Origin: Crocinitomicaceae bacterium
GTDB lineage: Bacteria; Bacteroidota; Bacteroidia; Flavobacteriales_D; Crocinitomicaceae
Direction: 5' to 3'
DNA length: 64,000 bases
Assembly: GCA_029249445.1 (NCBI GenBank)
Contig: JAQWHI010000019.1
Span: forward strand, 186,001 to 250,000
Below the pieces are notes generated by a model that worked only from the letters and a program-made list of their open reading frames with translations, made no database searches and was not told the origin of the DNA. The stretch's first letter is position 1. Every line of letters begins with the position of its first letter. Of this stretch, positions 33,882 through 37,683 are shown piece by piece. Made by a program: the position numbers and the translations under genes.

Positions 33882-34490
33882 CTACGATCGAAAAATCCAA
33901 CGTCTTTTTAACGCATTCCCACGAAAATCATCCAATTCCTCGGTGATTCCTTTGTTAATAAACTTCGCAAGTAGTTTTTGCGTTCCTTTCCCTTGTTTGT
34001 AGTCCATTTCATCTCCAAAAATCGGAACGATAAACAAAAAGTTGATTTCCTTTCCATTTGATTTTACAGGAGCCATTTCCTTTTCGAGCAGCATTGGTTT
34101 CACCAAAATAAAATGGTTTTGCTTCATTGTTGAAGAAAGTGACTGCATCTCTTTTCCGCAGGGCATGGTGTGTCCATGTCCGAACCATGTTTCATTTTCC
34201 TGAACGTATTTTGCTAGACGTTGGATCCAATGAAACACCCAATTTGTATTTGGATTTGAGCGGTCTTCCCAATCCCAATATCCAGGCAAACAAAAGCATA
34301 ATTCATTGAATTCTTTGCCTTTTTCCTTTTCATGAACAGGCATCTTATACTTACTTAAACCATTGGTAAGTAGAACATTTACAGGGATTTTGGCTTCAAG
34401 ATCGAGCATTAAAAGCGGCAGCTCTCCATCCTGAACGGGAAGGTCCACCACGCGTTCTTCACCAAAACGTTGTATCAATTCGTTTTTCAC
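33882..34490 (-). CDS. Suppressor-of-fused (SUFU) domain protein
   Basis: This is a 202-residue protein matching the bacterial SUFU-like family. Signatures seen are ELCFCLPGYWDWE, then WVFHWIQRLAKYVQENETWFGHGHT, then LFIVPIFGDEMDY. Bacterial members occur as immunity-like or housekeeping proteins of unknown role. No toxin gene is adjacent, so an immunity role is not supported here. The start is GTG at 34488-34490 and no ATG fits. It lies 45 nt downstream of the DUF6495-like gene on the same strand. Confidence 0.82.
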   Translation of the reverse strand: MKNELIQRFGEERVVDLPVQDGELPLLMLDLEAKIPVNVLLTNGLSKYKMPVHEKEKGKEFNELCFCLPGYWDWEDRSNPNTNWVFHWIQRLAKYVQENETWFGHGHTMPCGKEMQSLSSTMKQNHFILVKPMLLEKEMAPVKSNGKEINFLFIVPIFGDEMDYKQGKGTQKLLAKFINKGITEELDDFRGNALKRRWIFRS

Positions 34491-36289: not shown

Positions 36290-36385
36290 TTTAACGGACA
36301 TTCCAAAGTTCAAGGATACGCTATTTGATTTATGCTACACTTTGGAGTTTAAAGCAGATTAGGAAATAACACGAAATTCATCTTT

Positions 36386-37387
36386 ATGGCCACAACGAAC
36401 TCTGCAGATTTTGAGAAATTAAAATATTTTCTCACAACAAAAATGAGGATGTCTCACATCTATCAACCCGTAATGATATTAGAACTTCTTAAAAGAAATG
36501 GATTGGCCAATAAAAGAGATATTGCTGAGGCTATTTTGTCTTATGATGAGAGCCAAAAGGAATACTACGAAAAAATTACTACTTCAATGGTTGGTAAAGT
36601 GCTCACCAAAAACAACAATATAACTTCGAAAAAAAAAGATCAATACTCATTGAATGGATTTGATGGACTTGAATTGGCTCAAAAAGAAGAATTGAAATTC
36701 ATATGTGAAGAAAAGATACTGCACTATTTAGAGAATAGAAAAAATGTTTGGCAGCATAGAAAAAAGTCATCTGGATACATCTCAGGTTCTATCCGACTTG
36801 AGGTTTTTAAAAGGTCTAAAACTAAATGTGAAATGTGCGGTGTAGACAATAGAGAAAAAGCCCTAGAAGTAGATCATATTATACCGAGAAACAAAGGGGG
36901 TAGTGATGATATTTCTAATCTTCAGGCTCTATGCTACACTTGTAACTCAATTAAAAAAGACAAGGATGATACTGATCTTGTAGCAGTAAGAAAATCATAC
37001 TCTGAAAGAAAAAAAGATTGTATTTTTTGTAATTCCGATTTCGAAATTATATCTGAGAATGAACTGGCATTTATCATATACGACAAATATCCAGTTACTA
37101 AATTTCATACTCTAATTATTCCGAAGAGACACGTCGAAACATATTTTGAACTTTACCAGCCAGAAATTAACGCGATAAATCAATTGATAAACCAACAAAA
37201 ATCAAACCTCGATAAACTAGACAAAAAAATTAGCGGTTATAATATTGGCATAAATAATGGTGAAAGCGCCGGTCAAACGATATTCCACTGCCATATTCAT
37301 TTGATTCCTCGAAGAAATAGTGATACATCCAATCCTACTGGTGGAGTGCGAGGAGTAATTCCAAATAAAATGGATTACTTAAAATGA
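36386..37387 (+). CDS. Fusion protein: winged-helix-like N-terminus, HNH nuclease and HIT nucleotide hydrolase
   Basis: This is a 333-residue protein with three parts. Residues 1-90 form a helical, probably winged-helix region (QPVMILELLKRNGLANKRDI), a likely DNA-binding or regulatory module. Residues 140-195 are an HNH nuclease with zinc pairs CEMC (148-151) and CYTC (183-186) around the core VDHIIPRNKGGSDD (His164). Residues 211-330 are a HIT domain with CIFC (212-215) and the histidine triad HCHIH (301-305), ending in GGVRGVIPNKMDY. HNH cuts nucleic acid, and HIT enzymes hydrolyse or transfer nucleotides. The gene is visibly more AT-rich than its neighbours and sits next to tRNA-Asn, which suggests acquisition. 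A defence role is an inference only. Confidence 0.85.
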   Translation: MATTNSADFEKLKYFLTTKMRMSHIYQPVMILELLKRNGLANKRDIAEAILSYDESQKEYYEKITTSMVGKVLTKNNNITSKKKDQYSLNGFDGLELAQKEELKFICEEKILHYLENRKNVWQHRKKSSGYISGSIRLEVFKRSKTKCEMCGVDNREKALEVDHIIPRNKGGSDDISNLQALCYTCNSIKKDKDDTDLVAVRKSYSERKKDCIFCNSDFEIISENELAFIIYDKYPVTKFHTLIIPKRHVETYFELYQPEINAINQLINQQKSNLDKLDKKISGYNIGINNGESAGQTIFHCHIHLIPRRNSDTSNPTGGVRGVIPNKMDYLK

Positions 37388-37570
37388 AAATAGATTTTAA
37401 ATTGAATAATTGAGTTGGCTGAGAACAAGAAAAACTTCTACAGAATGTAGTTTACCAATTGTCATTCGGAAAAATTGAGAGGAGGATCATTTAGGTTTTC
37501 CTCGTTTTTAGGTTTTTACTGCCAGTAACTGCACTTTTTCGTATATTGTAGTGTCTAACTATAGGTCACA
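37388..37570. other. Non-coding interval between the HNH-HIT gene and the tRNA terminator
   Basis: This 183-nt AT-rich stretch lies downstream of the HNH-HIT stop. I see no open frame, hairpin with T-run, or repeat in it. It ends at the terminator hairpin of tRNA-Asn. Confidence 0.6.
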
Positions 37571-37603: not shown

Positions 37604-37609
37604 CAGTTG

Positions 37610-37683
37610 CGCTCCTTCCAGGGCTCGAACCTGGGACCCTCTGATTAACAGTCAGATGCTCTAACCAACTGAGCTAAAGAAGC
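37610..37683 (-). tRNA. tRNA-Asn (anticodon GTT)
   Basis: This 74-nt gene reads on the minus strand. The acceptor stem GCTTCTT pairs with AAGGAGC (one G-T pair) and the discriminator is G. The D arm is GCTC/GAGC. The anticodon stem TCTGA/TCAGA encloses CTGTTAA, giving anticodon GTT for Asn. The T arm CCAGG/CCTGG encloses TTCGAGC. The 3' CCA is not encoded. It has a good promoter upstream and a terminator downstream, so it is a single-gene unit. Confidence 0.97.

Follow-up and report, generated by a model that had tools for sequence, protein, structure and literature searches.

The window, a stretch of 64,000 nucleotides from contig JAQWHI010000019.1 of a Crocinitomicaceae bacterium (assembly GCA_029249445.1), carries a gene that encodes an HNH nuclease fused to a HIT nucleotide hydrolase (Table 1). 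Its flanking open reading frames, dxr before it and a glycosyltransferase-like gene after it, have a tRNA-Asn gene between them. The AT-richness and the nearby tRNA described in the first-pass annotation were both recovered. The gene has the lowest GC content, 32.6% (0.326), among the 44 window ORFs that reach 150 aa, whose mean is 0.411 ± 0.023 (z = −3.8 for the gene). The 8-bp inverted repeat that the same annotation had placed around the gene did not hold as a flanking element, since its two arms are both found in the interval separating dxr from the start codon, and a comparable repeat occurs in 4–7% of equal stretches or shuffles, which is near chance. It was consequently ruled out as an element border. 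Integration anchored at the tRNA was likewise rejected, because the surroundings of the gene showed no duplicated tRNA 3′ end that could represent an attachment site. Upstream of dxr, a gene for a SUFU-domain protein (5e-31; positions 33882-34490, minus strand) adjoins a DUF6495 gene, and its presence varies across the genus. SUFU domains are frequent in immunity proteins of toxin systems.

Table 1. Features at the HNH-HIT locus (positions within the window)
Feature	Position	Strand	Remarks
8-bp inverted repeat, 29-nt loop	36302-36309 and 36339-36346		Upstream of the gene only
HNH-HIT fusion gene	36386-37387	+	333 aa, ATG start, stop codon included
N-terminal domain, residues 1-118	36386-36739	+	Probable DNA-binding part; winged-helix-like element order (model)
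Zinc HNH nuclease domain, residues 148-192	36827-36961	+	Pfam HNH 3.8e-15, HNH_5 3.2e-14
HIT nucleotide hydrolase domain, residues 220-311	37043-37318	+	Pfam HIT 2.5e-19
HIT triad HCHIH, residues 301-305	37286-37300	+	
C-terminal tail of the HIT subfamily	37319-37384	+	Consensus GDxxxPRGGVRGVIPxKxxY
Terminator-like hairpin with T run	37479-37503	+	Downstream of the gene; weak, 1 found against 0.7 expected
tRNA-Asn	37609-37683	-	3′ end faces the HNH-HIT gene

The three-part architecture with two intact catalytic centers, as originally described, was confirmed by the Pfam matches and by the residues that proved invariant. The HNH motif is complete (C148-C151, D163-H164, N178, C183-C186-N187), as is the HIT triad (H301-C-H303-I-H305), and D163, H164, N178, N187 and the three triad histidines were invariant in 30 aligned homologues. 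The protein thus has the ββα-metal motif of the HNH superfamily with its catalytic DH, N and zinc cysteines, together with the HxHxH triad in a HIT fold that defines the HIT superfamily. Among 43 scanned loci that carry the N-terminus and HNH module, HxHxH was present in all 41 fused proteins having a HIT domain and the HNH core was absent from L039 only, while L192 escaped the HNH search pattern solely due to an IDH variant. The full-length structure model, built on a 30-row alignment, reached a pLDDT of 83.7 and contained a helical N-terminal domain preceding the HNH domain, and its HIT half matched solved HIT structures (Foldseek, 2.4e-7). The C-terminal tail is basic and modeled with low confidence, and the alignment showed it to be conserved in both fused and stand-alone HIT members. 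A housekeeping HinT-type identity of the HIT domain was rejected, since it is 47–62% identical to an HNH-linked HIT subfamily versus 27–37% to the housekeeping HIT copies of its relatives (33% to that of its own genome).

The proposal of a winged-helix-like N-terminus stood only in part. Modeled alone, the domain had a pLDDT of 87.6 and the order helix-helix-helix-strand-strand-helix, with two short strands and a long last helix, which is compatible with a winged helix; however, a fold search with this model gave no significant match, the weak top ones including winged-helix proteins. The domain carries the conserved motif MRMSHIYQPVM. Kinship with the HaeII family (PF09554) was dismissed, the Pfam score of 17.3 bits falling below the cut-off of 25 and the profile–profile probability being 2%. 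Judging from the model, the N-terminal domain is probably the DNA-binding part of the protein. Winged-helix HNH enzymes sense DNA modification (PMC11037411), and these type IV enzymes, like the window protein, combine a winged-helix-like N-terminal part and an HNH domain in one small protein. Homologues of the window gene also have type IV restriction neighbors. Unlike the window protein, that family has no HIT domain, and the winged helix of the window protein is a putative one. By this analogy the N-terminus may sense DNA modification, which we treat as a lead and not as a result.

Comparison with close genomes showed the fusion in one of 34 genomes of the genus, that of the window alone, while dxr was found in 33 of the 34. 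Within the order, three of 199 sampled genomes contained the fusion. A clean empty-site comparison was not obtained, as the gene content after dxr varies among most relatives examined and the tRNA-Asn junction is common to none of them. Because of this rarity, the atypical composition and the variable content after dxr, the conclusion that the gene is accessory and horizontally moved is supported, in agreement with the first-pass annotation. A fixed locus or exclusively housekeeping neighbors would speak against a mobile defense role, and neither was found among the relatives examined.

About 35 full-length homologues, 40–59% identical, are spread over distant bacterial phyla and viral or proviral contigs. 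About 20 near-full-length homologues (38–59% identical in the best segment) came from genome contigs of FCPU426, SAR86, Marinimicrobia, Zetaproteobacteria, Acidobacteria, Bacteroidota, and one archaeon; about 15 came from viral or proviral contigs, and there were several more from Bacteroidota. The settings of homologues include prophages, integrase islands and recombinase elements. In the HIT tree, the window protein was placed nearest to a viral contig and SAR86, not to other Bacteroidota, with weak support at that position.

Tabulating the neighbors of the fused homologues brought up restriction genes and prophage, integrase or recombinase settings repeatedly, not housekeeping genes alone. 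A SauUSI-like DUF3427 helicase (PADLOC mREase_IV, 1e-203) lies 3–61 bp away from the fused gene or overlaps it in L035, L037, and L283, the last of which belongs to the same family as the window organism and also contains an integrase and a WYL-like (HTH_11) regulator. The type IV-like restriction neighbors further comprise GmrSD parts in L028 and L284 and an HNH_2 nuclease located 20–21 bp upstream in an operon in L021 and L025. Other neighbors are a type II restriction-modification system, HpaII (L036), Vsr with 5mC methyltransferases (L191), GIY-YIG (L179), Cas9 (L193), and a relaxase (L038). By hand count and with no formal background, a restriction-type or CRISPR nuclease gene adjoins approximately 13 of some 32 inspected fused loci; the PADLOC neighbor tally, in which many models overlapped and diluted the counts, served as a qualitative guide only. 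Several fused loci, namely SAR86 L022 and L023, L027, and L029, had no defense neighbors. Apart from HNH_2 (L021, L025) and the SauUSI-like helicase (three loci), no single conserved partner of the fused form was found among the inspected loci. A defense context of the fused homologues is supported.

The gene had been considered a single-gene system without a companion. This is true of the window, but related HIT domains are encoded by a separate gene paired with that of a different HNH nuclease. Among the stand-alone relatives of the window HIT domain (47–62% identical), a gene for an HNH nuclease of ~340 aa lies 0–30 bp from the HIT gene in 22 of 31 sampled loci, as determined by a profile search (17/25 in an even phylum sample and 5/6 in an order sample). 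By comparison, none of 17 housekeeping HIT loci had such a neighbor (p about 1e-6, an indicative value given that the sampled loci are phylogenetically related). A cluster analysis found the ~340-aa HNH in 19 HIT loci, mostly within 13 bp of the HIT gene or overlapping it, and HNH_4 (10) and HNH (6) ranked first in a Pfam tally of 115 neighbors of stand-alone HIT genes. The ~340-aa family can be aligned with the N-terminus and HNH module of the window protein over the HNH motif only. On plasmids of Polaromonas and Aromatoleum, the two genes are annotated as encoding a HIT protein and an HNH endonuclease. On Nostoc plasmids L291 and L296, an 80-aa hypothetical gene takes the place of HIT after the ~340-aa HNH gene, beside a second HNH gene and DUF262/DUF3696 genes. 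Fused and separate forms are intermixed on the HIT tree, which requires at least five changes of the "fused" label, so fusion and separation of HIT and HNH have recurred.

The hydrolase is exchanged as well. In L160 (1216-2115, minus strand) and L165 (1498-2403, plus strand), the N-terminus and HNH module is fused not to HIT but to an NTP pyrophosphohydrolase, which is 39–52% identical to annotated NTP pyrophosphohydrolases. A match of the pyrophosphohydrolase to TAL effectors in the PDB was a composition artefact, as no single stretch passed. A thermonuclease-like gene comes after the L165 fusion. The ~340-aa HNH gene adjoins the same type of NTP pyrophosphohydrolase gene on plasmids of Lysinibacillus and Rhodococcus; an NTP pyrophosphohydrolase case on a Caulobacter plasmid was discarded, the protein there, of 815 aa, having no HNH motif. 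These fusions and plasmid pairs therefore show two HNH families that each pair with two hydrolase families, the pairs being interchangeable.

Further partners surround the HIT subfamily. In many Bacteroidota it is fused to a methyltransferase resembling the DNA phosphorothioation-associated TIGR04096 (3e-20), and nearly all of these methyltransferase-HIT fusions (L084, L086-L088, L090, L155-L173) adjoin the ~340-aa HNH nuclease; these loci look like modification-restriction units. HIT, MutT/NUDIX and a SauUSI-like DUF3427 helicase form a consecutive operon in L055 (4611-8269), a methyltransferase-HIT fusion occurs with MutT and the same type of helicase in L090 (9476-13957), and MutT/NUDIX, a third hydrolase, is found near the HIT and HNH pair in Hymenobacter. 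Of the proposal that a nuclease is coupled to nucleotide processing, the coupling proved general, and the part played by the hydrolase can be suggested by analogy.

Restriction enzymes of the HNH type are already known, and so are HIT proteins within defense loci. In type II Thoeris, the HIT protein ThsC has been proposed as an off-switch (PMC8565338), and there, too, a HIT hydrolase is attached to a defense module; the PADLOC ThsC model matched the HIT half of the window protein (5e-12). In contrast to ThsC, the window HIT is fused to a nuclease, and membership in Thoeris type II was excluded, as the flanking genes named above include neither ThsA nor ThsB. The SauUSI-like type IV enzymes (PLD, helicase and DUF3427) are recurrent neighbors of both fused and stand-alone HIT genes, but their nuclease fold is different, and no helicase accompanies the window gene. 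Septu PtuB resembles the window protein in its HNH domain (PADLOC, 4e-5) but lacks HIT, and Septu membership was rejected since no PtuA ATPase gene lies beside the window gene. MazG, a nucleotide pyrophosphohydrolase encoded beside the MazEF nuclease toxin, is thought to limit that toxin. The likeness of a hydrolase placed beside a nuclease toxin is one of logic alone, the toxin being an RNase and the hydrolase a different one. PADLOC contains no dedicated model for the HNH-HIT pairing, and no description of the fusion, the two-gene pair or the pyrophosphohydrolase exchange was found in the literature searched, from which subscription papers were mostly absent.

Because the pairing recurs with both partners exchanged, hydrolysis of a soluble nucleotide would be something that the nuclease either requires or makes necessary, and the restriction neighbors, the mobility and the patchy distribution speak for action against invading DNA. 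The locus probably encodes an anti-invader nuclease with a coupled hydrolase. The best explanation as a whole, to which we give an even chance, is a mobile restriction-type nuclease against invading DNA with HIT as its control element. The N-terminal domain would bind the target DNA, the HNH domain would cleave invading DNA, and the HIT domain would be an active nucleotide hydrolase whose function is linked to that of the cutter. The hydrolase may remove a small nucleotide that licenses or raises nuclease activity, such as a dinucleoside polyphosphate or another alarmone, and this hydrolysis could keep the nuclease off in healthy cells or shut it down afterwards. No second-messenger synthesis gene adjoined any member inspected, and the signal would therefore be a general cellular nucleotide. 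Control or limitation is preferred by analogy with MazG and with the ThsC off-switch (PMC8565338), and nuclease control by nucleotide hydrolysis specifically is a tentative proposal that we would sooner doubt than assert. The original suggestion of a defense effector with nucleotide-controlled cutting is thus supported in its defense context, and its mechanism is put forward conditionally. Several points weigh against the anti-invader reading: the loci without defense neighbors, the conserved non-defense context of SAR116 stand-alone HIT members, the housekeeping neighbors in the window, and a phage copy (L183) that is located between small- and large-terminase-like genes and could serve packaging.

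Cutting and hydrolysis might instead be two effector arms, the HNH domain cutting the invader and the hydrolase (HIT, MazG-like or MutT) destroying nucleotides needed by the phage or clearing freed modified nucleotides. This would suit the swapped-in NTP pyrophosphohydrolase, which acts on free nucleotides, the L055 operon of MutT, HIT and SauUSI-like helicase, and the type IV-like neighbors, which suggest modified DNA as the target. HIT enzymes of known activity, however, use AMP-X or ApnA rather than dNTP pools, and we consider two arms unlikely. A still less probable arrangement is an aprataxin-like HIT domain that removes nucleotidyl groups from 5′ ends arising in cutting and re-ligation, by which cut invader DNA would be made unrepairable or host DNA repairable. 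The fusion or linkage of HIT to DNA nucleases and the conserved basic tail are consistent with processing of DNA ends, but an NTP pyrophosphohydrolase replaces HIT in the same scaffold, and the known substrates of that family are free nucleotides rather than DNA ends.

Equally improbable, in our judgment, is a selfish or phage-derived HNH endonuclease of homing or packaging type that acquired HIT and owes its spread to its own mobility and not to host defense. The roughly 15 viral and proviral copies, the terminase-flanked L183 copy and the recombinase-borne L184 copies point in this direction; chromosomal linkage to restriction genes nevertheless recurs, both catalytic centers are conserved across distant phyla, and the two-gene HIT and HNH form had no match in the phage collection. 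The least probable reading is a cellular DNA-repair or stress enzyme spread by transfer with no anti-invader role, for which the housekeeping neighbors in the window and some relatives and an SOS-associated peptidase gene adjoining the Aromatoleum pair speak, and against which stand its presence in 1/34 genus genomes, its atypical composition and its restriction-rich neighborhoods.

Returning to a nuclease that acts on invading DNA under the control of a hydrolase, a broader generalization can be offered with some reserve, at less than an even chance: pairs of HNH and small hydrolase may constitute an undescribed class of anti-invader modules, in which at least two unrelated HNH families and at least two unrelated hydrolase families (HIT and the MazG-like NTP pyrophosphohydrolase) can be exchanged, fused or adjacent, and the cutter's activity is set by hydrolyzing a cellular nucleotide. 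If this is a defense module, a housekeeping-type nucleotide hydrolase would be linked to DNA cutting, and nucleotide metabolism would tune a restriction-type enzyme with no dedicated messenger synthase involved. The HNH-linked HIT subfamily, whose members usually carry just the label "HIT family protein," would gain a concrete functional context.

Several individual members depart from the common form. The archaeal (Nitrosarchaeum) member L039 (2-850) has its HNH core deleted in frame with the HIT half intact, and the HNH-HIT gene of Palleronia L034 (8508-10876) is split by a transposase gene. In L040 (9494-10669), the 3′ part of HNH-HIT follows a primase-like N-terminus in frame, as a chimera or a real fusion. 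The near-identical viral or proviral contigs L184-L188 contain a large serine recombinase gene, HNH-HIT, and then a GIY-YIG-looking gene with no Pfam match, and represent a recombinase element carrying cargo.
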